This document shows, in pieces, positions 3,610-38,086 of a stretch of DNA of 64,000 nucleotides. The notes under the pieces were generated by a model. The model was not told where the DNA came from and did no database searches. It saw only the letters and a program-made list of their open reading frames with translations. Position numbers and translations under genes: made by a program. The first letter of the stretch is position 1. Each line of letters opens with the position of its first letter. This DNA is from Candidatus Eisenbacteria bacterium (lineage in GTDB: Bacteria; Eisenbacteria; RBG-16-71-46): positions 1-64,000 of the forward strand of contig JADLBL010000003.1 of assembly GCA_020847735.1 (NCBI GenBank), in the 5' to 3' direction.

Positions 3610-4302
3610 ATGAGGGCTCAGCCAGCCGCTCCCCGGGCCAACGGGGAGCCCGAACCCCGTGAGACCATCGCCTACGCCGAGCTGCTGAAGCTCGCGCACG
3701 ACGAGGGCCTGAAGTCCATCGCCACCTCGCTCGTCTTGACGCCCTCCGAGGACAACGGCCGCCTCGCGATCGTCAAGGCCTCGGTCGAGACGGAGCGCGG
3801 GCACTTCGAAGCTCTGGGCGATGCCGATCCCGGCAACGTCGATGACTTCCTTGCCCCGCACCTGATCCGCGTGGCCGAGACCCGGGCCAAGGCCCGCGCC
3901 CTCCGTGACGCCTGCAATGTGGGCGTCGTCTCCTCCGAGGAGCTGGACGGCGTCAGCCGCGACCGGACCCCGAGCCCCGGACCGGGTGCACACCCTGCGC
4001 GCCCCAACGGCACGAGTCGCACGACCACGCGCCCGCGTGGCAACGGCTCCGCTCCACGATCCAACGCCAGCGGCTCGCCCGAGCCGATGACCGAGGGCCA
4101 GCGCCGGTACCTGTTCCGCATCCTCGCGGGGCAGGGCTACCAGCGCGAGGCCGCCGAGGTGCGCATCAAAGAGCTCTTCGACGTCGACTCGCTCGCCGAG
4201 ATCACCAAGACCGGCGCCATGCAGATGATCGACCGGCTCCTGAACCCCGTCCCCGCCACCGCGGGAGGCGGCAATGGAGCCGAGACGCGTCCTCTCCGTT
4301 AG
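3610..4302 (+). CDS. Rad52-like single-strand annealing protein
   Basis: This 230-aa protein is likely to bind single-stranded DNA and promote annealing in homologous recombination of the element. The N-terminal domain (about 15-115) contains the ERGHFEALGDADPGNV segment followed by HLIRVAETRAKARALRDA, a signature I associate with bacterial and phage Rad52-fold proteins. A Pro/Arg/Asn-rich linker (about 120-165) leads to a C-terminal helical module (MTEGQRRYLFRIL through MIDRLL) that often ends such proteins and may bind DNA or SSB. Its end overlaps the next nuclease gene by 29 bp, a pairing like annealase plus exonuclease in phage recombination modules. The ATG at 3610 follows AGGAG at 3598-3602. 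Family assignment is by pattern, not by alignment. Confidence 0.6.
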   Translation: MRAQPAAPRANGEPEPRETIAYAELLKLAHDEGLKSIATSLVLTPSEDNGRLAIVKASVETERGHFEALGDADPGNVDDFLAPHLIRVAETRAKARALRDACNVGVVSSEELDGVSRDRTPSPGPGAHPARPNGTSRTTTRPRGNGSAPRSNASGSPEPMTEGQRRYLFRILAGQGYQREAAEVRIKELFDVDSLAEITKTGAMQMIDRLLNPVPATAGGGNGAETRPLR

Positions 4303-5116
4303 CCAGGTCAACGCCTACCTCGGCTGTCCGCTCAAGTACCGCTTCCAATACGTGGACAAGATCCCGCGTCCCTGGCGGGTCGCTGGCATGGCCTTCGGCA
4401 CCTCGATCCACGCCGCCGTCGAGTGGTTCCACAAGGAACGGCTCGCCGGACGCTCGCCGGAGCTTCCCGACGTGCAGAAGGTCTTCGACGCCGACTGGTA
4501 CGCGCAGAACGTGGAGCCGCTTGTCTTCTCCGAACGCGAGTCCCGCGAGGGTCTCGCCGAGAAGGGACGGGCCATGCTCCAGCTCTACGTGGAGTCCTGC
4601 AATGGGACGAAGCCGGTCGCGGTCGAACAGCCGTTCGAACTCGACCTCGCCGATCCCGAGACCGGCGAAGTGCTCGAGGTGCGCCTGCGGGGCATCATCG
4701 ACCTTATCGAGGACGATGACGTGCTCGTGGACCTCAAGACCGCCGGCCGGACACTTGAAGCCGGCGGACTCGAACGGCACCTGCAGCTCTCCGCCTACGC
4801 GCTGGCCTATCTGCTCCTTAAGGGGAAGGTCCCGCGCCTGCGGCTGGACATGCTGCTCAAGACCACGAAGCCGCGGCTCGAGCGGCACGAGACCACCCGC
4901 TCGCTCGAGGACCTGTCCTGGACCGCCCGGCTGATCCGCGAGGTCTCCCTCGCGATCGAGACCGAGCATTTCTTCCCGAACCCGTCCTGGCGCTGCACCG
5001 AGTGCGAGTACTTCGCCCACTGCCAGCAGTGGCGCGGTACCTGGCCGATGCAGGCCGACGAGCAGTTACTCCAACTGGCTGAAAGGGAAGGTGTCGGCGA
5101 GATCGCGGGCGCGTGA
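4274..5116 (+). CDS. PD-(D/E)XK nuclease of the RecB/Cas4 type
   Basis: This 280-aa protein matches RecB-family nucleases: an N-terminal SVSQVNAYLGCPLKY motif, GTSIHAAVEWF, and the catalytic core GIIDLI (D143) with VDLKTA (D153, K155), then a QLSAYALAY motif IV. C18 together with C241, C244 and C250 forms a four-cysteine arrangement like the Fe-S clusters of Cas4 and AddB. It overlaps the Rad52-like gene, so the two probably form an exonuclease-annealase pair. No CRISPR array or other cas gene is present, so Cas4 function in adaptation is unlikely. The family call is strong; exonuclease polarity is unknown. Confidence 0.82.
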   Translation: MEPRRVLSVSQVNAYLGCPLKYRFQYVDKIPRPWRVAGMAFGTSIHAAVEWFHKERLAGRSPELPDVQKVFDADWYAQNVEPLVFSERESREGLAEKGRAMLQLYVESCNGTKPVAVEQPFELDLADPETGEVLEVRLRGIIDLIEDDDVLVDLKTAGRTLEAGGLERHLQLSAYALAYLLLKGKVPRLRLDMLLKTTKPRLERHETTRSLEDLSWTARLIREVSLAIETEHFFPNPSWRCTECEYFAHCQQWRGTWPMQADEQLLQLAEREGVGEIAGA

Positions 5117-5288
5117 GGACCTAGGCGGTCGTCGCGTGTCATCGGGGGCCACGGACGGCAGCTGAATGCCTTGCGCCCCGCGGCTCGTCGCACCTTCCCC
5201 GTCTCTTCGTTCCTTCCATCTCCATCGGGGCTCCGCGCGTATTCGCTCGGGGCCCTTCTTTCTTGCCCGCCCCTGCAGGAGTCACCCC

Positions 5289-5714
5289 GTGTATGTCCGC
5301 GAACTCACCCGTCGCCGCTACCGCACCACTTCCCCGGTTCCCATCCGTGGTCCCGACGACGTCGCCCACCTGCCGGCCGTCAAGCGGCTCGTCCGGGCCA
5401 AGCGAGAGCACTTCGTCGTGCTGCTCCTCAACGCCCGGCATGAGGTCGAGGGGATCGAGACCGTCTCGATCGGTTCCTTGAACGCCTCGATCGTCCACCC
5501 GCGCGAGGTCTTCAAGCCCGCCGTCGTCAGCTCGGCTGCCTCGGTCGTCCTTGTCCACAACCACCCTTCGGGCGATCCCGAGCCCTCGGAAGAAGACCTC
5601 TCGATCACCAAGCGCCTGGTCGAAGTCGGCGATCTGCTCGGCATCGGCGTCCTGGATCACGTCCTGGTCGCGAGCCGGGGCCTCGTCTCGTTCCGCGCCC
5701 GGCAACTGCTCTGA
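5289..5714 (+). CDS. RadC (JAB/MPN) domain protein
   Basis: This 141-aa protein consists of the RadC MPN+/JAMM domain alone, without the N-terminal helix-hairpin-helix of chromosomal RadC. The metal-binding motif is H90-N-H92-P-S-G with S100 and D103. Despite the historic name, RadC is not an established repair enzyme; stand-alone RadC genes are common on plasmids, ICEs and genomic islands. The GTG at 5289 is chosen because CAGGAG lies 8 bp upstream, whereas the longer frame is C-rich and not protein-like. The upstream 5117-5288 stretch is a leader with a GGGGCCC run and T-rich tail but no convincing hairpin. Confidence 0.85.
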   Translation: MYVRELTRRRYRTTSPVPIRGPDDVAHLPAVKRLVRAKREHFVVLLLNARHEVEGIETVSIGSLNASIVHPREVFKPAVVSSAASVVLVHNHPSGDPEPSEEDLSITKRLVEVGDLLGIGVLDHVLVASRGLVSFRARQLL

Positions 5715-5730
5715 CGAGAGGGAGGCACCA

Positions 5731-6132
5731 ATGGGCTACACCGTCGATCTGGAAGAAGCCAACCTCATGTGCCGCAGTGAAGCCGCAGCCCGCGAGGCCA
5801 CGACCATCGTCACCGCTCACCGAGAACTGAGTCCCTATCACCTCGAGGTGGCTCCCTGGCAGCGCAGCAGCCCGCCCCGCGAGGACGCATGGTCGCTCAG
5901 CATCGAGCACTTCCAGGGCGACCACTGGGACGACGACGCGGCCAAGCAGCTGTGGCTGGCGCTCGCCCCGCACCTGGCCGACGGCGCCACGATCGAGTTC
6001 CAGGGCGAGGACCGAGTGCGCTGGCGCATCCGCTGGGAGGCCGGCCGTGTCTTCGAGGAGTACGTCCACGAAGTGATCTGGGCCGTCGGCCAGGAGATCG
6101 ACCCGACAGAGTCTGAACCCGCCCCCGCATGA
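5731..6132 (+). CDS. Hypothetical protein between RadC and DUF932 genes
   Basis: This 133-aa acidic protein (VDLEEANLMC... WSLSIEHFQGDHWDDDAAKQLW) has no motif I recognise. It begins 17 bp after radC and ends 16 bp before the DUF932 gene, so it is part of one operon, and GGGAGG lies before its ATG. Alternating hydrophobic and acidic stretches (IEFQGEDRVRWRIRWEAGRVFEEYVHEVIW) suggest a small soluble alpha/beta protein. Confidence 0.6.
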   Translation: MGYTVDLEEANLMCRSEAAAREATTIVTAHRELSPYHLEVAPWQRSSPPREDAWSLSIEHFQGDHWDDDAAKQLWLALAPHLADGATIEFQGEDRVRWRIRWEAGRVFEEYVHEVIWAVGQEIDPTESEPAPA

Positions 6133-25772: not shown

Positions 25773-26564
25773 TCAAGATGCCAGCCTTTGCGTGTTGAGG
25801 GTCTCAGTGTAACGCCGGGCGAACTCGCTCGGCGTCTTGTTGTCGAGGGCACTGTGCGGCCTGACTTCGTTGAAGTCCTGCCGGTAGGCATCGATCGCGT
25901 CGCGAGCCTCCGCGATGCTCCGCCACCAGTGCTGGTTCAGCAGCTCGTCCCGCATCCGGCCGTTGTAGCTCTCCATCACCGCGTTCTGGATCGGCTTGCC
26001 AGGTTGGATGAACTCCAGCGCGACCTTGTGCTCGTACGCCCACGCATCGAGTCGTGTGCTGCGAAACTCGGGCCCGTTGTCGAGGACGATGCGCGCCGGG
26101 TAGCCGCGCTCGAGCGCGATCTCCTCGAGCACCCCGATCACTCGCACCGCCGGCAGGCTCGTGTCGACCTCGCTCGCCAGCCCCTCGCGCGGGAGCACGT
26201 CCACCACGTTGAACACCCGGTAGCGCCGCCCGCTCGCGAGCGAGTCCGACATGAAGTCCATCGCCCAGCACTCGTTCACCCGCTGCGGCGTCACCAGCGG
26301 CTGCCGCGGCACCGAAACGCGCTTGTGCTTGCGACGGCGCACCGCCAGGCCTTCCTCGCGGTAGAGCCGGTACGTGCGCTTGATGTTCACCCGCACCCCT
26401 TCCCTTCGCAGCAGCAGGTGCAACCGCCGGTAGCCCCAGCGCACGCGCTCGAGCGCCAGCTCGCACAGCCGCTGCCGCAGCCCTTCCTGTGGAGGACGGC
26501 GTGAACGGTAGCGTTGGCTCGACAGCGGCACGCCCAGCGCGCTGCAGGCGCGGCGTTCCGACAC
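25773..26564 (-). CDS. IS3-family transposase OrfB (DDE integrase domain)
   Basis: This 263-aa product contains the helix-turn-helix-like region (RVRWGYRRLHLLLRREG) and an rve-type DDE core: WAMDFMSD (first Asp), VLDNGPEF (second Asp) and AVMESYNGRMRDE (Glu). The protein appears intact. It is normally made as an OrfAB fusion by a -1 frameshift; a GGGAAAAG run near the end of orfA could serve as the slippery site. The ATG at 26564 is nominal. Confidence 0.85.
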   Translation of the reverse strand: MSERRACSALGVPLSSQRYRSRRPPQEGLRQRLCELALERVRWGYRRLHLLLRREGVRVNIKRTYRLYREEGLAVRRRKHKRVSVPRQPLVTPQRVNECWAMDFMSDSLASGRRYRVFNVVDVLPREGLASEVDTSLPAVRVIGVLEEIALERGYPARIVLDNGPEFRSTRLDAWAYEHKVALEFIQPGKPIQNAVMESYNGRMRDELLNQHWWRSIAEARDAIDAYRQDFNEVRPHSALDNKTPSEFARRYTETLNTQRLAS

Positions 26565-26620
26565 TCCGGCATGGCGAGTCCTGGCCTCTGCGACGGCGGC
26601 GCGCCGGGCCGCGGCCGTCG

Positions 26621-26887
26621 TCAGTCTTTTCCCAGTGCCTCCCGCAGCAGCTGCAGGTCCAGCGTCTGGTTCGCCACGATCTGCTTCAGGCGGCGGTTCT
26701 CGTCCTCGAGCGCCTTCAGGCGCTTGGCGTCGCTCACGTCCATGCCGGCGAACTTCACCTTCCAGCGGTAATAGGTCTTCGGCGCGACGCCGTGACGCCG
26801 GATCACCTCGCCGACCGAGCCGGCGTCCGCTTCCTTCACGATCGCGATGATCTGCTCTTCGGTATAGCGCTTCCCGTTGCCTGCCAT
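26621..26887 (-). CDS. IS3-family transposase OrfA
   Basis: This 88-aa protein has a helix-turn-helix (KRYTEEQIIAIVKEADAGS ... TYYRWKVKFAGM) and a C-terminal leucine-zipper-like coil (LKALEDENRRLKQIVANQ), as in OrfA of IS3 elements. It supplies DNA binding to the transposase. It lies upstream of and out of phase with OrfB. Confidence 0.85.
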   Translation of the reverse strand: MAGNGKRYTEEQIIAIVKEADAGSVGEVIRRHGVAPKTYYRWKVKFAGMDVSDAKRLKALEDENRRLKQIVANQTLDLQLLREALGKD

Positions 26888-30216: not shown

Positions 30217-30411
30217 ATGACTACGAAGCCCGGGTACGACGGTCTCGGCCCAATGAAGCCCTCACCGGCACTACTCGTTCCTCGCCGGGACGGTTCTGTC
30301 GAAGTGCGGTCACCGAATCTGCGGCGGTTGCTTGCTGTGATCACGGTTGAGGGCGCCCTCATCATCAAGCGCGGCGACGAGTTGGTGATCGTGGAGGTGC
30401 CGACGAACTAG
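30217..30411 (+). CDS. 64-aa hypothetical protein
   Basis: ATG at 30217 follows GGGAGGAG. The product is small and beta-rich (ALLVPRRDGSVEVRSPNL, LAVITVEGALIIKRGDELVIVEV). It lies at the head of the putative modification module. It has no C-terminal diglycine, so a ubiquitin-like modifier role is not supported. No family is recognised. Confidence 0.5.
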   Translation: MTTKPGYDGLGPMKPSPALLVPRRDGSVEVRSPNLRRLLAVITVEGALIIKRGDELVIVEVPTN

Positions 30412-30460
30412 TCGCCCTCGTCAGGCGAACTGATGCACGAATTACGCAACCTTGAGCTAG

Positions 30461-30516
30461 ACCGAGGCGCCAGCGCTCGACGCGACAGCCCCAACGCAAT
30501 GCGGTGGGGCGTTTTC
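30461..30516 (+). promoter_or_regulatory. Leader element copy 1: 31-bp repeat plus hairpin
   Basis: A 31-bp sequence (30461-30491) identical to 31003-31033 runs into a stem GCCCCAACGC/GCGGTGGGGC (30488-30497 with 30501-30510, one mismatch) followed by GTTTTC. It ends 34 bp before the start codon at 30550, too close for a separate promoter, which suggests regulated read-through. Confidence 0.55.
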
Positions 30517-30549
30517 ATCGCTCGCCGACGAGTGACTGGGGGTCCTGAG

Positions 30550-30918: not shown

Positions 30919-31002
30919 TCCGGGAGACTCCTGCCCGACGCAAGGAGGTTACGGCGCAAGTCCGCCTTCGCCAGGCGGAGGCGAGTCCACGTTAGAACCA
31001 CG

Positions 31003-31059
31003 ACCGAGGCGCCAGCGCTCGACGCGACAGCCCTTACCGATGGCGGTGAGGGCCTTTTC
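31003..31059 (+). promoter_or_regulatory. Leader element copy 2: 31-bp repeat plus hairpin
   Basis: The 31-bp repeat (31003-31033) joins a perfect ten-pair stem with one G-U pair (31030-31039 with 31044-31053) and a CTTTTC tail. The stem differs from copy 1 by paired changes, so base pairing is preserved while the sequence changes. A 23-codon frame starts 23 bp later. Confidence 0.55.
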
Positions 31060-31082
31060 GTTGCCTCCCGCGAGGTATCGCA

Positions 31083-31154
31083 ATGACCGCGACGAACAGT
31101 TCGCTGGTGCGTGGCGACGACCGGGACTTCGTCCCGGCCGGCACGTTCCACTAG
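31083..31154 (+). CDS. Possible 23-aa peptide gene
   Basis: ATG at 31083, with GCGAGG 7 bp upstream, opens MTATNSSLVRGDDRDFVPAG followed by TFH and a TAG stop. It sits between leader element copy 2 and the E2-like gene. It may be a leader peptide or a small substrate. Coding evidence is only position and a fair ribosome-binding site. Confidence 0.3.
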   Translation: MTATNSSLVRGDDRDFVPAGTFH

Positions 31155-31239
31155 CCGGCGCACGCACCCGGCGGGGCGGCGGCTCCGAGCCGCCGCCCGA
31201 CGGCCGGGCTCCGGATCGCAATCACTCGAAGGAGGCGAC

Positions 31240-31605
31240 ATGTGGTGGCTCGTGGGCTTGCTCGCGGCACTCGCCGCAGCCAGCAACAACGACTCGCGGA
31301 ACTCGGTGGTGAGCGGTTCCAGCCGCTCGTCCGACTCCGACGGCTGGTCGCGCACGCTGACTTACCGCTCGCGCGACGGCAGCTCGTTCTTCCGGTTCCG
31401 CTTCACGCCGATCGGCGGGGACATCCGGATCCACATCCTCGAGCTTCCGAATCCCCGTGTCGGCTCGTGTCACGTGCTGCACGACGCGCAGGGGCTCTAC
31501 ATCTGCTGGTCGACTGCAGTCCGGTCGATGGCCGCGGCAAAGGCTGTCGCCCTGATGTGGGCCGAGGCCACGCTCATCTACCAGCGCACAGGTCGCTCGT
31601 TCTAG
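31240..31605 (+). CDS. Putative E2-like (ubiquitin-conjugating fold) protein
   Basis: This 121-aa protein has a hydrophobic N-terminus (MWWLVGLLAALAAA), a Ser-rich linker and a compact domain from about residue 48. Strands FFRFRFTP and DIRIHILELP are followed by SCHVLHDAQGLYICW, with Cys 89 behind a H78..H81 context, and then a long helix AAAKAVALMWAEATLIYQRTG. The H-x-(G)-x-C then W/A-rich helix order resembles divergent bacterial E2-like domains found next to JAB and ThiF genes. It sits 14 bp upstream of a JAB-ThiF fusion gene, which is the main support. The family call is inference; the hydrophobic N-terminus is unusual for an E2. GGAGG precedes the ATG. Confidence 0.5.
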   Translation: MWWLVGLLAALAAASNNDSRNSVVSGSSRSSDSDGWSRTLTYRSRDGSSFFRFRFTPIGGDIRIHILELPNPRVGSCHVLHDAQGLYICWSTAVRSMAAAKAVALMWAEATLIYQRTGRSF

Positions 31606-31619
31606 GAGGGATGTGCCCC

Positions 31620-33149
31620 ATGAGACTCAGGCTAGGACTCGGGAATCGAGGTGCGAGGATGCGACGGAGCGATGGACCGGGCAACCCCTCGCGAGAGCCC
31701 CTACGTGTGACTGCGGCGGTCCATCGCCAGATCATCGGTGCCATCGGCGGCAAGACGCCCGAGAACGGGATGCTCCTGGGCGGAGATCCAGTCGACGGTG
31801 TCGTCCGGCACGTGGTGTTCGACGACGGCGCCGTGCGCTCCGGCAGCACCTACTCGCCCGACCACGTTCGATTGAATTCTCTGCTGTCGGACTGGTGGCG
31901 GCCCTCCGGCATCCGCCTGCTCGGCTTCGTGCACTCGCACCCGGGGCAGTTCGCGCGTCCATCGGGTGGTGACCTGCACTACGCCAAGGCCATCCTCAAG
32001 GCGAACCCGCACCTCGATCGGCTCCTCATGCCGATCGTGACCGTCACGCCCGAGCCGATGATTCACCCGTTCGTGGTGCGCCGAACGGCCGAGGGCGTAA
32101 CGGCGGCGCCAGCGACGCTCGAGGTCCTCGACGAGGTGCTCCTGACGGCCGGCGAGAAGTCGCCGAACGTTCCCGCGGTCGAGTTGCCCGTCCTGCCTCC
32201 GCGGCGCATTCGCGAGGAGACGTTTCAGCGCGTCGTGTGCGCCTACGACCTGGCGCATCTGCGGCACTGCCGCGTCGTCGTGGTCGGCGTGGGCGGCGCG
32301 GCCGGCTTTGCCGAGGATCTCGTCCGGGCCGGCGTGCATGACCTCGTCCTCATCGATCCCGACACCGTCTCGACCTCGAACCTCGCCACGCAGCAGGTGT
32401 ATCGACGCGACCTCGGCCGTTCGAAGGTCGAGGCCATCGCCGACCGGCTGCGCGACATCAACCCCGCCGTCGAGGTGCGCGCCCTGCAGGCGGACTTCAC
32501 CAGCCTCACCGAGTCCGAGGTCGAGAGCCTGCTCGGGCTCGACCTCGCCCGGCCGCCGATCCGCACGCTGCTGTGCGGCTGCACGGACGACTTCTTCGCG
32601 CAGGCGCGAGTGAACCGCGTTGGGCTGCAGCACGGCGTACCGACCCTCTGCGGCCAACTGTACGCCGAAGGCCGCGGAGCCGAGCTGACGTTCACCTACC
32701 CGGCTGTCACCCCGGCTTGCCATCGCTGCATCCTCCGCTCGCGCTACGAGGCCTACCTCGAGCACCGATACGCCAATGCCGTCACGTCTGACGGGACGCC
32801 GATTTCGTCCACGACCCGATTGAATGCCGCAAAGCTCGCGGTCGCGATGGGGCTGCTCCACCACGGCACCACGCACGCGCGCTGGGGGCGTCTGCTCGAA
32901 CGCATCGGTAACCGCAACCTCGTCCAACTCCGCCTCGACCCCGATCTCGAGCTGCCCGTGTTCGATCAAGTTCTCGTCGGCGACCGCGAGCGGGTGTTCA
33001 GCGACGAAGCCGTCTGGCTGCCGCAGGAACCCGAGGGACCGGCAGTGGGCCGCCCCGCGTGCCCGGACTGCGGCGGGACCGGGGATCTGCGGCAAGCGAT
33101 CGGGACAATTGCCGACACCCGTCTGCTTCCGCCGCGGAAGACGGTGTGA
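31620..33149 (+). CDS. JAMM protease-ThiF/E1 fusion protein
   Basis: This 509-aa protein fuses two parts of ubiquitin-like pathways. Residues about 28-150 are a JAB/MPN+ domain with E48, H105-S-H107-P, S115 and D118, the full JAMM zinc set, so isopeptidase activity is plausible. Residues about 205-450 are a ThiF/E1 adenylation domain: VVGVGGAAG (nucleotide loop, 222-229), LIDPD (D246), SNLATQQVY and GRSKVE. CHRC (367/370) and CPDC (481/484) are two CxxC knuckles that should form the E1-type zinc site. PRTRC cassettes and Bil or CBASS operons use separate or differently fused JAB and E1 proteins. ATG at 31620 is preferred over 31611 because the AGGAGGG spacing is better. The 3' end overlaps the next gene. 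Confidence 0.88.
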   Translation: MRLRLGLGNRGARMRRSDGPGNPSREPLRVTAAVHRQIIGAIGGKTPENGMLLGGDPVDGVVRHVVFDDGAVRSGSTYSPDHVRLNSLLSDWWRPSGIRLLGFVHSHPGQFARPSGGDLHYAKAILKANPHLDRLLMPIVTVTPEPMIHPFVVRRTAEGVTAAPATLEVLDEVLLTAGEKSPNVPAVELPVLPPRRIREETFQRVVCAYDLAHLRHCRVVVVGVGGAAGFAEDLVRAGVHDLVLIDPDTVSTSNLATQQVYRRDLGRSKVEAIADRLRDINPAVEVRALQADFTSLTESEVESLLGLDLARPPIRTLLCGCTDDFFAQARVNRVGLQHGVPTLCGQLYAEGRGAELTFTYPAVTPACHRCILRSRYEAYLEHRYANAVTSDGTPISSTTRLNAAKLAVAMGLLHHGTTHARWGRLLERIGNRNLVQLRLDPDLELPVFDQVLVGDRERVFSDEAVWLPQEPEGPAVGRPACPDCGGTGDLRQAIGTIADTRLLPPRKTV

Positions 33150-33526
33150 TGGCTCGCGAAGTCGACTGGTTCGGGTTCCTCGTGTCCGTCTTCGTGAAGG
33201 GGGTCTTCGCGATGCTCATCATCCACTGGGTTCTTGCACAAGTCCTCTTGATCTGGACCTCGGCCGATCGCTCGCTGCGCCCGATGTCGCTCGCCGCAGA
33301 CCTGCTGGGTGGGGTCGTCCTGATCTGCCTGCTGGTTGGTCTGGCGGCTCGTGCACGAGCAGCGTTCGAGGGCCGTGATCGCGGGCTCGTCCGTGAACGA
33401 CGCGCGGAGCGGCGGCTCGTCCGTCACAGCGTTCGACGTTCGGCCGACGACGTCCCGTTGGACGATGCACCGCAGTCGGCGGACTCCGATCCGATCCTGC
33501 ACCACGACGAGGGGGCCGACGAATGA
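33149..33526 (+). CDS. Two-helix membrane protein upstream of the coupling ATPase
   Basis: This 125-aa protein has two transmembrane helices (about 8-34, FGFLVSVFVKGVFAMLIIHWVLAQVLLIW; about 48-67, LAADLLGGVVLICLLVGLAA) and a cytoplasmic charged tail. It overlaps the JAB-ThiF stop (TGATG) and the next start (ATGA), so all three are coupled. By position it may tether the ATPase to the membrane, as VirB10- or TraD-N-terminal-like helices do; the ATPase itself has no obvious membrane helix. Confidence 0.65.
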   Translation: MAREVDWFGFLVSVFVKGVFAMLIIHWVLAQVLLIWTSADRSLRPMSLAADLLGGVVLICLLVGLAARARAAFEGRDRGLVRERRAERRLVRHSVRRSADDVPLDDAPQSADSDPILHHDEGADE

Positions 33527-35040
33527 GCCTTCTTCTCGACTTAAGGCGCATCCTCCATCCTGCCGATCCGCGCGACGCTCGTCGTTTCGAGCGGATCGCG
33601 CGCCAAGATGCCAGTCCCTACTTCGCTGCACGCCGGGAGTTCGAGAGCCGATTTCGGTGCGCCCGCGCATCGGACCGCATTGTATTTGGCCGCGGACCCA
33701 CGGTCGGTGGCGAGTACAACTGGTTCGGCCTGCCGTTTCGCGATCTCGGCCACGTGTGGATTCATGGAGCAACTGGATCCGGCAAGAGCTTTGCGGCGCT
33801 CAGTCTGATCCTCTCGCTCCTGCGCCGGAGCCGTGCGCGGATCTTCCTCTTCGACTTCAAGCCCGAGATCGCCGATCTCGTCTTGCTCGCCGTTCAGGCG
33901 CTCGTGGCTCGGAGCGAGACGTGGCTGCTCGATGACGTCCAGCTGCTCGATCCCTTCGGCCCGACGCCGCTGCCGCTTCGCGTGACCGTGCCCGAGCCCG
34001 GGGTGCCGCGAAGCGTCCAGGCCCTGGCCCTCGCTTCGAGCCTCGAGGAGACGGTGGCCAGCGAGCTGGGCGTGCGGATGCTGCGGACCTTCGTGTGGCT
34101 TGTGAGCCTGGCCATCGAGTGCGGTTATCCGCTGACGGCCCTGGCGCGGTGGCTGCGTACACCGGGCGTCTTCCAGGAGCTGGCGCTACGTTCCACCGAT
34201 CCGGAGCTTCGCGAGTATGCCGCCTCCAGCTTCGGGCGCGAGCAGCGGGCGTCGCTGGAAGCGATTGCCGCGCGCCTCGACTTGTTGGTGTTCCTGCCGC
34301 AACTGCGCGCGGCGCTCGAGCACCCGGGGTGCATCGATCTGGCCGCGCTCTTCCGTCGGCCCGGGCTCACTCTCGTGCGTCTGGGCGGCGCGCCGGCCGG
34401 AGCGGAGGCGGCCGAGCGGTTGATCGCTTCGCTGCTCATGGGCCTGTGGACGCGCGCCGTGCTCTCCCGCGAGATCACCGAGGGCTCATTGCCGGTGGTC
34501 GGAGTGTTCGACGAAGGCCAGCTGGCGGTCCGGGCCCGCGACGTCGAGCACTTCTCGCGGTTCGCGACGTTGGCTAGGTCCAAGCGCGGGACGCTGGTCT
34601 TCCTCAACCAGCAGATCTCGCAGCTCGACCACGGCTTCGCCCGGGTGCTGCGGACGAACGCCAACCTGGAGATGGCCTTCCGCTCGAGCGCCGAGGACGC
34701 GGCCTCCCTGGCCTCCGTCCTGCCGCTGGCGGTGGGAGAGGGCGCCGAGGCGGCGGATCGTCGCGAACTCGTCCGTACCCTCAGCCATCTGCCGAACCGC
34801 ACGTTCGCGCTCTGGGCCAAGAGCCTCGGGCATGCGGCGCTCCTTCGCTCCCCGCGCATCGATCTGGATGGCATGCGACGTGACGCGGGCCGTATTCCCG
34901 AGAGCGCCGCGCAGGCGCTTCTTGTGGGGACGGTCCCGGTTCGGCAGTTCACCCCGCCGTCGAGTCCATTCCGTGCTCCTGAAGAAGAGGCCGAGGTTGA
35001 AGCGCCCGGACCCGACGATGGCTTCCCGAGCCTTGGATAG
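33523..35040 (+). CDS. VirD4/TraD-like coupling ATPase
   Basis: This 505-aa P-loop ATPase resembles conjugative coupling proteins and HerA/FtsK-like motors. Walker A is GATGSGKS (82-89); a Walker B-like VVGVFDEGQLAV is near 325-336, followed by a FATLARSKRGTLVFLNQQ sensor region. Residues about 100-130 (RIFLFDFKPEIADLV) match the strand after the P-loop. There is no N-terminal membrane anchor; the preceding membrane protein may supply it. Neighbours (replication-relaxation protein, excisionase, integrase) fit DNA mobilisation. Confidence 0.78.
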   Translation: MSLLLDLRRILHPADPRDARRFERIARQDASPYFAARREFESRFRCARASDRIVFGRGPTVGGEYNWFGLPFRDLGHVWIHGATGSGKSFAALSLILSLLRRSRARIFLFDFKPEIADLVLLAVQALVARSETWLLDDVQLLDPFGPTPLPLRVTVPEPGVPRSVQALALASSLEETVASELGVRMLRTFVWLVSLAIECGYPLTALARWLRTPGVFQELALRSTDPELREYAASSFGREQRASLEAIAARLDLLVFLPQLRAALEHPGCIDLAALFRRPGLTLVRLGGAPAGAEAAERLIASLLMGLWTRAVLSREITEGSLPVVGVFDEGQLAVRARDVEHFSRFATLARSKRGTLVFLNQQISQLDHGFARVLRTNANLEMAFRSSAEDAASLASVLPLAVGEGAEAADRRELVRTLSHLPNRTFALWAKSLGHAALLRSPRIDLDGMRRDAGRIPESAAQALLVGTVPVRQFTPPSSPFRAPEEEAEVEAPGPDDGFPSLG

Positions 35041-35049
35041 GAGCGGAGT

Positions 35050-35367
35050 GTGCGTGAAGTACGGGAATTGGCGCGATTCGTCGTCGGAGTCGTCCGCGCG
35101 CTCGTTTGGCTGGTGGCCACTATCTGGCTGGGCGGCCGGGCGATCTGGCGTGGCGCGGACCTGCTCCGTCGCTGGCGCCTCGTCCACAGCGATCGGCTCA
35201 GCTGTCCCCGCGGCCATGAGGTCGTGCTGCTTGGCACGTGGCGCTGCGGCTGCGGCGCCGCCTTCGACGGCTACGTCTTCGCCAAGTGCCCGATCTGCCA
35301 CCGTACCGCCGGCTGGGTGCCATGCACGCGATGCCAGCTGCCTTTGAGGAACCCGGCCCTTGACTAA
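35050..35367 (+). CDS. Membrane-anchored zinc-ribbon protein
   Basis: This 105-aa protein has an N-terminal hydrophobic helix (FVVGVVRALVWLVATIWLGG) and a C-terminal zinc-binding region with CPRG, CGCG, CPIC and CTRC knuckles, enough for two zinc sites. It starts at GTG 35050, 9 bp after the ATPase stop, and its end overlaps the next gene by 8 bp. Role unknown; by position it probably works with the ATPase. Confidence 0.6.
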   Translation: MREVRELARFVVGVVRALVWLVATIWLGGRAIWRGADLLRRWRLVHSDRLSCPRGHEVVLLGTWRCGCGAAFDGYVFAKCPICHRTAGWVPCTRCQLPLRNPALD

Positions 35368-36133
35368 CCAGCACCAAAGAGCGCCGCGCGGGGTGCGCCG
35401 AGGCCGGACTCGCCTGGAACTGACGAGACGCGACCGGGCGATCTTGGGAGCGGTCAGCAGGTTCAGGCTGTGCCGGAGCAGCGACCTGGCGCGGCTCTTC
35501 TTCGGCGCGGCCAGCCGGACGCGAGTGGCCCAGCGGCTTCGGAGCCTGTTCGGGGCGGGCTATCTCGACGTGCGGGTCGAACACCTGGCGGAGGAGAACC
35601 TCCACTCGCTTGGCGAGCTGGGTCGGGCTTGGGCGCGAGCACAGGGGCTGACGATCGGCCGCGTGCCGAGCGGCCGGATCGGCCACCACCTCGACGTCGT
35701 GCGCGCGTGGAGCACACTGGCTGCCGTCCTCGGGCCCCACAACCAGATCCGGCTCGCGCGCGTCCGGCCGGACTGGGAGTTGCGGGAGGCAGGCGGTCAC
35801 CTCGTCGTGCCGGATCTGCTCGTGGAGCTCTCGGCGGCGGGGAAGCGATTGGTCGTGGCGGTCGAGGTCGATCGCGGAACCGAGCGGACACGCGCCTGGC
35901 AGGACAAGCTCGCGCGCTACAGCGCCGTCCACGCCGACCGCGAGGCCCTGCTCGTGGTGATCGCCGCCCCGTCGGTCGTCCCGGCGCTCGAGCGGCTGGC
36001 CAAGCGTGCCTGGCTTGGCCGCGTGCTGGTCGTGGCCGAGGCCGACTGGCCGGAGCTGTTCATCCGCCGCGCTGAGGCCCTTCTCACGGACCCTTCTTGC
36101 AGCAAGAAGGGGGAGGAGGCGGCAAGTGCTTGA
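35360..36133 (+). CDS. Replication-relaxation (MobC-like) family protein
   Basis: This 257-aa protein fits the replication-relaxation family found on plasmids and ICEs. It has an N-terminal winged-helix domain (LTRRDRAILGAVSRFRLCRSSDLARLFF), then a region ending in VVPDLLVEL followed by VAVEVDRGTERTRAWQDKLARY. The latter resembles a PD-(D/E)XK-like core (Asp, then E-x-D, then a Lys-bearing helix). The likely role is binding the origin of transfer or replication. The start is TTG at 35360 with AGGA upstream, overlapping the previous gene. Confidence 0.72.
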   Translation: MTNQHQRAPRGVRRGRTRLELTRRDRAILGAVSRFRLCRSSDLARLFFGAASRTRVAQRLRSLFGAGYLDVRVEHLAEENLHSLGELGRAWARAQGLTIGRVPSGRIGHHLDVVRAWSTLAAVLGPHNQIRLARVRPDWELREAGGHLVVPDLLVELSAAGKRLVVAVEVDRGTERTRAWQDKLARYSAVHADREALLVVIAAPSVVPALERLAKRAWLGRVLVVAEADWPELFIRRAEALLTDPSCSKKGEEAASA

Positions 36134-36225: not shown

Positions 36226-36540
36226 ATGAAACGACAACTCCTCGGAGGGCTCGGCTGGCTCCTCGCACTGCCGGTGGTCGGCGCAGTGCGACTCGTCTGG
36301 TCCATTCTTCGGCTGCTCGCGGCACAGCGCCCGCAGACGATCCTCATGCTCGTCGGCGTCGGTCTCGTGCTGAGCTTCTCGAATCCGCTAACCGACCAGC
36401 TGGCGCTGGCAGGACTCTGGCCTCCGGAGCCAGGGGTACTGCTACGCGTGGGCTGGGCGGTGGCGGCCGGGGTGCTCTTCCACGGACTGCGCTCGCCGGG
36501 CCTGAATCGACTGCGCCGCCGGCTGCTTCAGCTGGAATGA
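36226..36540 (+). CDS. Small membrane protein
   Basis: This 104-aa protein has three hydrophobic stretches (GWLLALPVVGAVRLVWSILRLLAA; TILMLVGVGLVLSF; VGWAVAAGVLFHGL) and a basic C-terminus. No family is recognised. It lies between the replication-relaxation protein and the excisionase genes on the same strand. Confidence 0.55.
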   Translation: MKRQLLGGLGWLLALPVVGAVRLVWSILRLLAAQRPQTILMLVGVGLVLSFSNPLTDQLALAGLWPPEPGVLLRVGWAVAAGVLFHGLRSPGLNRLRRRLLQLE

Positions 36541-36682
36541 CCGGCGGTCGCAAAGCGTACGGCCGTTCGGCTGGCAGGAACGCCAGTCTGGTTCCGACGA
36601 CCGAGTGCCGTCCGTGGATCGCTCCGGAGGGGACGATCGCGGGTTGGCGCCTCCCGGCCGTGACAACCATTGCAGGTCTCGA

Positions 36683-36967
36683 ATGAGCGGGATCCCGTCT
36701 CGCATCCGAGCGTCGCACGCCGAGCTGCTCGACCTCGGCCCGGCTGGGTCTGTGGAAGCGCCTCAGCTAGCGCCGCAGCGCCCCAGCATCGTCGACGAGT
36801 CGCACCTGCTGACGCTCGGCGATGTGGCCGAGTACCTGCGCGTCAGCCCGCGGACGGTGCGCCGGCTCATGCGCCGCGGCTTGCCTTGTATCCGGTTCGG
36901 GCGCTCGGTTAGGTTCGAGCCCAAGGCGGTTTCTCGCTGGCTCGAAGCGCGTCAAGAAGGAGGCTGA
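36683..36967 (+). CDS. Excisionase-type helix-turn-helix protein
   Basis: This 94-aa protein carries an excisionase/MerR-like helix-turn-helix: LLTLGDVAEYLRVSPRTVRRLMRRG, then IRFGRSVRFEPKAVSRWLEA. It ends 1 bp before the GTG of the integrase gene, the usual xis-int arrangement, and should direct excision of the element by bending attachment-site DNA. The first about 38 residues are a non-conserved extension. Confidence 0.82.
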   Translation: MSGIPSRIRASHAELLDLGPAGSVEAPQLAPQRPSIVDESHLLTLGDVAEYLRVSPRTVRRLMRRGLPCIRFGRSVRFEPKAVSRWLEARQEGG

Positions 36968-36968
36968 C

Positions 36969-37979
36969 GTGCCACCGAGACCGAGGAACTTGGTCAGGAA
37001 GCCGGGGAAGCCGGGCTGGTACTTCCGCCGCAAAGTCGGCGGGCGAACGTTCTGGCGATCCCTCGGCATGGACTACGAGGAGGCGTGCCGCAGACTTCGT
37101 CGATACAGAGACCGCGAGACGGTTCGGCGACCGGACCTCACGGTCAAGAGAGCAGCCGAAGATTGGCTCGAGGCGTACGTGGCTACCGCTCGTCGGCCGG
37201 AAGATCGGCCGCTGGCGGCTCAGCGCGTGCGTGACTACCTGGTCCCGGCCATCGGGCACCTGCTCGTCGTTCGGATCACGGGCGACGATCTCCGACGCTA
37301 CCGGCTCCGGTTGGAGCGGGGGCACTTGTCGCGACAGTCCGTGCGGCACGTGCTAGCCGACTGCCGGTGCTTGTTCCGCTGGTGCGTGGACTCGGGACTG
37401 CTGGACCAGTCCCCGGTCCCGCGGAAGTTCCTGCCGCGGATCCAGGAGCGGCCACCCGATCGGTTGTCGGAGGAGCAGCTGCAGTTGGCCTGCAGTCTGC
37501 CGGACCCGTGGGGCTTCTTCTGCCGGCTCGGTGCCGGGACGGGTCTGCGTTGGGGCGAGCTCCACCGACTCCAGTCTTCGGACCTGCAGCACGGGCTGCT
37601 GGTCATCCATCAGACCAAGAGCGGCAAGGTCCGGCGGGTGCCAGTCCCGAGAAGCCTGCAGCTGGAGATCCGCGGTCGGGTGGGCCGGCTCGTGGCGTTC
37701 AAACACGCGCAGAGCATCAGCGACTACGTGCGTGCCGCCGGCGTCGAGGGCTTCCACGTCCACCAACTGCGGCACACGTTCGCGTGCCGGTGGCTGGAAC
37801 GCGGAGGATCGCTGGCCGCGCTGCAGCAGATTCTCGGGCATGCGTCGATCGTCACGACGCAGCGCTACGCCAGTATCTCGACGGACATGATCCAGCGTGA
37901 GGCTGAGCGTCTTGAAACCGAAGGGGTTCCCCTCGGGGTACCCCGGAACTACGAAGACACTGAGGAGTCAACAGGTTAG
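36969..37979 (+). CDS. Tyrosine integrase of the element
   Basis: This 336-aa site-specific recombinase has an N-terminal arm-binding-like region (KPGWYFRRKVGGRTFWRSLG), a SAM-like core-binding domain (about 50-160) and a catalytic domain with GTGLRWGEL (Arg), HQLRHTFACRWL (H-x-x-R), ILGHAS (His) and TTQRYASI (Tyr). The gene ends 18 bp before the tRNA-Ser 3' fragment, so this enzyme probably catalysed insertion into that tRNA gene. GTG at 36969 is used, next to the excisionase stop; the longer open frame reads into the upstream gene. Confidence 0.9.
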   Translation: MPPRPRNLVRKPGKPGWYFRRKVGGRTFWRSLGMDYEEACRRLRRYRDRETVRRPDLTVKRAAEDWLEAYVATARRPEDRPLAAQRVRDYLVPAIGHLLVVRITGDDLRRYRLRLERGHLSRQSVRHVLADCRCLFRWCVDSGLLDQSPVPRKFLPRIQERPPDRLSEEQLQLACSLPDPWGFFCRLGAGTGLRWGELHRLQSSDLQHGLLVIHQTKSGKVRRVPVPRSLQLEIRGRVGRLVAFKHAQSISDYVRAAGVEGFHVHQLRHTFACRWLERGGSLAALQQILGHASIVTTQRYASISTDMIQREAERLETEGVPLGVPRNYEDTEESTG

Positions 37980-37997: not shown

Positions 37998-38055
37998 CTC
38001 GAAAACCGTTAAGGGCGCAAGCCCTTCGAGGGTTCGAATCCCTCCCTCTCCGCCA
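37998..38055 (+). other. attR: 3' fragment of tRNA-Ser(CGA)
   Basis: The fragment starts in the anticodon loop (CTCGAAA, anticodon CGA) and runs through the 3' anticodon strand, long variable arm (AAGGGC/GCCCTT), T-arm (GAGGG-TTCGAAT-CCCTC), 3' acceptor strand (CCTCTCC), discriminator G and CCA. Upstream bases do not complete the anticodon stem and no GGAGAGG acceptor 5' strand is present. This is the displaced 3' end left by integration; crossover probably lies at or near the anticodon loop. Confidence 0.88.
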
Positions 38056-38086
38056 GCCGGCGGCGCCACGGGCGCTGCGAGCTCGC

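Follow-up and report, generated by a model that had tools for sequence, protein, structure and literature searches.

All modifiers known from E1-E2 systems are folded, and they are either beta-grasp proteins or, in CBASS, the whole cGAS enzyme. JAB, E1-like and E2-like components are found together in Bil as well as in PRTRC systems. In pupylation, the tag (Pup) is a short protein with a Gly near its C-terminus, and the process uses the ligase chemistry of PafA/Dop, not E1, E2 and JAB. The row 6e operons of Iyer, Burroughs and Aravind, as outlined in PMC1779556, encode a polyUbl whose unit is a beta-grasp repeat of ~70 aa, a JAB-E1 fusion and an inactive E2/RWD-like protein. In type II CBASS, as outlined in PMC10097602, Cap2 (E1/E2) forms a thioester with the C-terminal Gly of cGAS, which is not a beta-grasp protein, and a tandem cGAS-cGAS fusion is cleaved behind this Gly by Cap3, a JAB protease. 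Furthermore, the review PMC12250964 describes ThiF-like adenylyltransferases whose substrates are short peptides encoded by genes.

In this study, we analysed a window of 64,000 nucleotides from a 'Candidatus Eisenbacteria' genome. On its forward strand, a short peptide gene (31083-31154) is followed by an E2-like gene (31240-31605) and by a gene for a JAB (JAMM)-ThiF/E1 fusion protein, here called JAB-E1 (31620-33149). Like the 6e operons, systems of this type have the JAB domain N-terminal to E1 in one protein, a small E2-related partner, a tandem-repeat modifier candidate and a mobile, patchy distribution. However, the repeated unit is linear and has 11-15 aa, and the window partner does not match Prok-E2_E and retains a Cys. 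The source genome has its own separate 6e-like system (locus L014, contig C21:213000-224000), with an operon at about 3700-6014 of this region on the minus strand. The operon encodes a 489-aa protein, found in both the JAB and the ThiF searches, and a Prok-E2_E protein (PF14462, E 1.5e-10). A further short product resembles a multi-ubiquitin/Ubl domain by appearance.

The locus shares E1, E2-like and JAB components and a candidate substrate outside the beta-grasp fold with type II CBASS. In CBASS, however, E2 is fused to E1, JAB is separate and the substrate is a whole enzyme, whereas JAB is fused to E1 in the window and the candidate is a short peptide. No CD-NTase was found among the ten window proteins scanned. 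PRTRC and Bil have the same three kinds of components as this locus, but the PRTRC_ThiF model scored only 22.2 bits here (cut-off 144.75), and no beta-grasp Ubl was recognised in the ORF lists here, Bil being compared by its general description. Pup resembles the candidate as a short tag with a Gly near the C-terminus, although it is much longer than the window peptide. A ThiF domain adjoining a short peptide gene is also seen with ThiF RiPP enzymes of the MccB/PaaA type. Unlike these enzymes, the present locus has a JAB domain and a Cys/His partner. In addition, no RRE family match was obtained among the proteins scanned, and RREs can escape sequence profiles.

The enzyme genes and the surrounding element

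The preliminary description of this DNA had claimed a fusion of JAB and ThiF in 509 aa with a complete JAMM set and a four-Cys site, and our results agree with it. In a Pfam profile search, Prok-JAB (PF14464) matched residues 76-134 (E 1.8e-6, 28.3 bits, cut-off 25) and ThiF (PF00899) matched residues 207-374 (E 7.7e-26), both above the curated cut-offs. The JAMM residues (E48, H105, H107, S115, and D118), the Zn-type site (C367/C370 and C481/C484) and the E1 residues K269, D323, and C344 were each located in the product. When 13 fused homologues were aligned, E48, H105, and D118 were invariant, and the only JAMM exceptions were Q for H107 in L019 and T for S115 in L045; thus the JAMM is complete or conservatively changed in 12 of them. 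The four Cys were invariant in all 13, and the three E1 residues were invariant across the fused homologues. The closest solved relatives by sequence are MoeB and ThiF. The Arg of their NLxRQ motif is replaced by Thr in all fused-type members (Ser in L100); apart from this change, the residue pattern of the E1/ThiF superfamily (GxGG, Asp, Lys, Asp, and the CxxC pairs) is present.

The E2-like protein has 121 aa, a hydrophobic N-terminus, an H78-x-x-H81 motif and C89. Both H81 and C89 were invariant in 13 aligned relatives, and the nine invariant positions include P, H, C, and W. The H...[YI][IV]C segment of this family appears to resemble the HPN...G-IC region of E2 proteins, and the role of the protein in transfer is putative. 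L044 contains additional E2-like copies without the Cys. The AlphaFold model of the window domain (mean pLDDT 85) has five strands and then one long helix, and the model of the L021 protein had a pLDDT of 74. Neither model gave a significant Foldseek match. The best non-significant matches included a CBASS E2 (8hsb_B, TM 0.48, E 0.82), Tsg101-UEV, and UFC1. Since Foldseek gives only such weak matches to E2 folds, an E2 fold is plausible rather than proved for this family. No significant profile match was found for the family, and Prok-E2_E did not match the window partner, whereas the L014 protein served as a positive control. Weak Pfam matches to AP2-like and PH-like domains (E 0.075 and 0.0075) occurred in one member each, and these identities were rejected. 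Thus, of the earlier assignment as a probable E2, the His/Cys motif stands, and the fold is a candidate.

Downstream of the enzymes, all on the forward strand, are genes for a two-helix membrane protein (33149-33526, 125 aa), an FtsK/HerA-type P-loop ATPase (33523-35040, 505 aa), a Cys-rich Zn protein with a membrane helix (35050-35367, 105 aa), a Replic_Relax (PF13814) protein (35360-36133, 257 aa, E 2.3e-9) and a small membrane protein (36226-36540, 104 aa). They are followed by an ORF for an excisionase-type HTH protein (36605-36967), whose true start may be further in, and a tyrosine integrase ORF (36822-37979), whose true start is probably downstream of 36822. The attachment site is a 60-bp piece (37998-38057) that matches the 3′ end of the C21 tRNA-Ser(CGA) at every base. 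ATPases of the same broad type are near the L013, L044, and L058 modules. The Cys-rich protein had only a sub-threshold Prok-RING_4 match (E 0.012), which makes it a weak E3-like candidate.

A second element is located on C21 (locus L013) in the source genome, an assembly of 27 contigs, and its JAB-E1 has 45% identity to that of the window. Its order is a short ORF, E2-like, JAB-E1, membrane protein, ATPase, Cys-rich protein, Replic_Relax-like protein and integrase, with the membrane and Cys-rich proteins at the same places as in the window. The two elements share their end point, a ~60-bp 3′ piece of tRNA-Ser(CGA). The 6e-like operon of L014 is about 8-12 kb from the L013 module. The integrase and the tRNA piece, in two copies, bear out the earlier claim of an integrating element, and the gene order, from E2-like to integrase, is also as it had been described. 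This order had been called unlike the known versions, and we found no literature that describes an E2-like/JAB-E1 arrangement in a tRNA-associated element. The ATPase had been named a coupling protein; this is unproved because no relaxase was recognised among the proteins scanned, and a conjugation role for it was therefore rejected. No left attachment copy was found for the window element, so its left boundary is undefined. IS3-type transposase genes are located at 25773-26887, left of the element.

Relatives of the system are rare: two phylum samples, of 294 and 289 genomes, contained them in 2 and 4 genomes, respectively. A JAB-E1 homologue with about 75-76% identity was found in a 'Candidatus Eisenbacteria' assembly of the same genus, where the contig breaks off immediately upstream within an E2-like gene, of which only the tail is left. 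Other homologues belong to Pirellulaceae (L019), Phycisphaerales (L020), and Pontiellaceae (L021); L036 comes from a genome of the phylum of L019, and L043, L044, and L045 come from further genomes of the phylum of L021. Plasmids and viral contigs, including IMG/VR, contained no close JAB-E1 homologue, and one phage record gave a weak E1 match with 32% coverage. In L020, L021, L043, L044, and L045, JAB-E1 is followed by a ClpA/B-type AAA ATPase (AAA_2 confirmed by Pfam in L021, L044, and L045). In L044 and L058, there is in addition a gene for a HerA-type ATPase and one for a small membrane protein. The neighbours of L036 are a gene whose GASH match is weak and sub-threshold and one for a large WD-repeat protein. 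The locus L019 is minimal, with only the peptide, E2-like and JAB-E1 genes among unrelated chromosomal genes. Downstream of the system in L044 (9185-12058) is a gene for a 957-aa protein with pentapeptide repeats, whose N-terminal part looks caspase-like by eye. In L016/L017 (G023:C443), a gene resembling an MTA70-type methyltransferase (MRRYAVIYADPPWRYSDKRHG...) lies between the JAB-E1 and membrane protein genes.

Judged from these loci, the peptide, E2-like and JAB-E1 genes are the constant core, and the ATPase and mobile-element genes are variable, optional partners, because L019 has the core only and other loci have different ATPases and neighbours. The JAB-ThiF gene thus does occur without the ATPase and element of the window (L019, and L045 with its ClpA/B-type AAA ATPase), and it was not found without the core at the fused loci whose upstream DNA could be read. 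The E2-like gene beside JAB-E1, which had been noted before, behaves as its constant Cys/His partner.

The short peptide gene and its distribution

The ORF at 31083-31154 has 23 codons (MTATNSSLVRGDDRDFVPAGTFH), an ATG start with GAGG 5′ of it, and a PxGTF[HR] end, and its product is a candidate modifier or substrate. The peptide of the second copy, L013, is MVAPLMPKLKGDEDGKKPLIPPGTFRR. Upstream DNA could be read at 12 fused JAB-E1 loci from 11 genomes of several phyla, and each of these loci has, near the enzyme genes, a short ORF with a motif of the P-x-G-[T/G]-F-[H/R] type. Some of the peptides carry the motif once, at their C-terminus, and others contain between two and five tandem units, which differ mostly by synonymous changes. 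For instance, there are four units of GDDELPEGGFR in L021, five of GGESVPSGTFR in L045, four in L037 (same genome as L020), four in L043 and two in L036, and L044 has only a relaxed form of the motif. The residues after G-T-F-[H/R] vary among loci (end, R, G, VL, A, and AG), and the motif is at the end or at most two residues from it in most peptides. A long tail follows the repeats in L037, and the L019 peptide ends in GTFH although a JAMM zinc ligand is lost there (H107Q). The peptide gene is directly before JAB-E1 in L045; in L099, JAB-E1 is on the opposite strand, and the L057 contig has the peptide and no E1.

The motif was already known when L043, L044, L045, L058, L099, and L100 were found, and each of them has the peptide. 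The motif thus predicted the content of these loci, which we count in favour of a conserved link between peptide and enzymes. The strict motif was within 600 nt upstream in nine of ten tested loci, and it had no occurrence in the other 379,724 strand-bases (~380 kb) of the ten loci. In the source genome, the DNA pattern of the peptide occurs nine times, and only the two system copies are at the C-terminus of an ORF; no ORF ends at any of the remaining seven. A chance origin of the motif is ruled out by the lack of matches elsewhere and by the ORF-end position unique to the system copies. The same DNA pattern was searched in viral contigs and nothing was found.

The exactly repeated units were chosen as protein-identical, so their differences are synonymous by selection of units, and they differ by a mean of 4-8 nucleotides per pair against ~8-9 synonymous sites. 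All four units of L021 (6.5 nucleotides per pair) and all five of L045 (5.8) are identical in protein yet divergent in nucleotides, and this comparison indicates that selection acts on the amino-acid sequence of the peptide. Therefore, the sequence data strongly support a tie of the peptide gene to the genes for the fused JAB-E1 and the E2-like protein. The ORF at 31083 had been listed as a candidate modifier by position only; the same motif beside the enzyme genes in all 12 fused loci raises it to a conserved partner gene. The ORFs at 30217 and 30550, which had been listed with it, were set aside, as no counterpart was noticed in relatives. No beta-grasp Ubl was recognised near the enzyme genes by reading the ORF lists of the window and its relatives, including L019, in line with the earlier remark that no ubiquitin-like protein is visible. 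The peptide is not described in the available text of PMC1779556, PMC7159879, PMC12250964, and PMC10097602, or in the open literature that we searched (subscription literature and preprints lay outside the search).

Clear ribosome sites precede most peptide ATGs. A G+C hairpin of 11 bp (31174-31198, z -2.4) lies between the peptide gene and the E2-like gene, and comparable perfect hairpins of 12-16 bp with unrelated sequence follow the peptide gene in L013, L021, L036, and L037 (z -3.6 to -5.4); the one in L043 is not significant. Such a hairpin could raise the output of peptide relative to the enzymes. A short ORF followed by a strong hairpin would also fit a regulatory leader peptide (attenuator) of the operon which is not itself a product. 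We consider this very improbable, because the amino-acid motif persists in different phyla while its codons drift synonymously and its copy number varies, no clear U-run is seen at the hairpins examined, and the position of the ORF is different in L045, L057, and L099. No Rfam element above the gathering score was found upstream. In addition, a near-identical direct repeat of ~30 bp (GACCGAGGCGCCAGCGCTCGACGCGACAGCCC) is present at 30455-30525 and 31000-31062 of the window; each copy is followed by a hairpin and a T-rich stretch, and the two precede the 30550 ORF and the peptide gene.

JAB and E1 are not fused in Phycisphaerae and Planctomycetia, where each of E2-like, JAB and E1 has its own gene. 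Three such split-type loci of Phycisphaerae have an internal motif, E-P-G-[ST]-F-H, that is not terminal, and the E2-like proteins of L076 and L077 have PG.F.G-related sequences at their N-termini. The peptide motif is absent from nine split-type loci of Planctomycetia (L101-L109). In these loci, a conserved ~70-aa protein (e.g. MYTIHSYHKKAKCEYAGREGEAVEISSADGTIDHAILCFQELQKLLRFR...) takes the place of the peptide, directly upstream of the E2-like gene. Because of these nine loci, the peptide is to be regarded, on present comparisons, as a companion of the fused type and of some split-type loci rather than of all E2-like loci. In L076 and L077, the enzyme genes are followed by a Cys-rich protein and a HerA-type ATPase. 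The Cys-rich protein is treble-clef/RING-like (L076 2631-3161; L077 4886-5449 and L078 538-1059, both minus), had no Pfam match above cut-off in L076 and L077, and is a possible E3.

The internal and N-terminal motifs of the split type would fit a peptide that docks to, scaffolds or inhibits the enzymes or a neighbouring ATPase, with a host protein (e.g. ThiS/MoaD) or another gene product as the modifier; tandem repeats also often raise avidity. However, most peptides end at the motif or within two residues beyond it, a Gly with a short tail is a feature of Ubl precursors, and no further small gene is conserved at the minimal locus L019. This explanation is therefore unlikely in our view.

A possible conjugation system with a linear peptide

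We propose that the locus may encode a reversible ubiquitin-type conjugation system in which a short linear peptide takes the place of the beta-grasp modifier, and we give this reading an even chance. Somewhat less confidence is placed in its specific form, a cascade of E1, E2 and JAB with an unstructured modifier of ~11 residues, single or cut from a tandem by JAB, that would give P-x-Gly tags. JAB would cut after the invariant Gly of P-x-G|T-F-[H/R], and the TFH tail would be removed from the window peptide; tandem peptides would be split into identical monomers, as polyubiquitin is split. E1 would then adenylate the new C-terminal Gly and form a thioester, with C344 as the candidate Cys. 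The Cys of the E2-like protein (C89 in the window) would accept the peptide and pass it to some target, and JAB could also remove attached peptide. HerA/FtsK-type or ClpA/B-type ATPases and the element genes would be optional partners, and the system might serve defence or regulate the mobile element.

The cleavage, activation and transfer steps are proposed by analogy with Cap2 and Cap3 of CBASS (PMC10097602), and the removed tail is supported by the residues after G-T-F-[H/R], which vary or are absent. Several results weaken the conjugation reading. The Arg of NLxRQ is Thr, so that ATP use by the E1 is only presumed, the JAMM of L019 is degenerate (H107Q), and the E2 fold lacks significant support. 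Furthermore, the nine Planctomycetia loci lack the peptide, the motif is internal in Phycisphaerae and L037 has a long tail.

The same genes could also be read as a RiPP-like pathway, in which the peptide is a (multi-core) precursor, ThiF activates its C-terminus as MccB/PaaA do, JAB frees the cores and the E2-like protein recognises or transfers them. Short encoded peptides are indeed substrates of ThiF-like adenylyltransferases (PMC12250964), the tandem repeats resemble multi-core precursors, and a hairpin follows the peptide genes, which immediately precede the enzyme genes. However, no RRE or exporter was recognised among the proteins scanned, and JAB is not mentioned in the available text of the ThiF-RiPP review (PMC12250964). 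In addition, the native C-terminal residues of the peptides vary, and JAB with a Cys/His partner is a signature of conjugation operons, as outlined in PMC1779556. We thus hold this pathway to be rather unlikely.

Conjugation of a linear peptide would have several consequences. The peptide partner offers a reason for the absence of a visible ubiquitin-like gene, and its motif is a sequence signature for finding further such systems. If the proposal is true, a linear peptide, conserved and encoded in repeats, would reveal how few features a modifier requires, and the system might provide a compact tool for protein tagging. Furthermore, with only three genes, it would be a minimal system in which to study the origin of ubiquitin chemistry.
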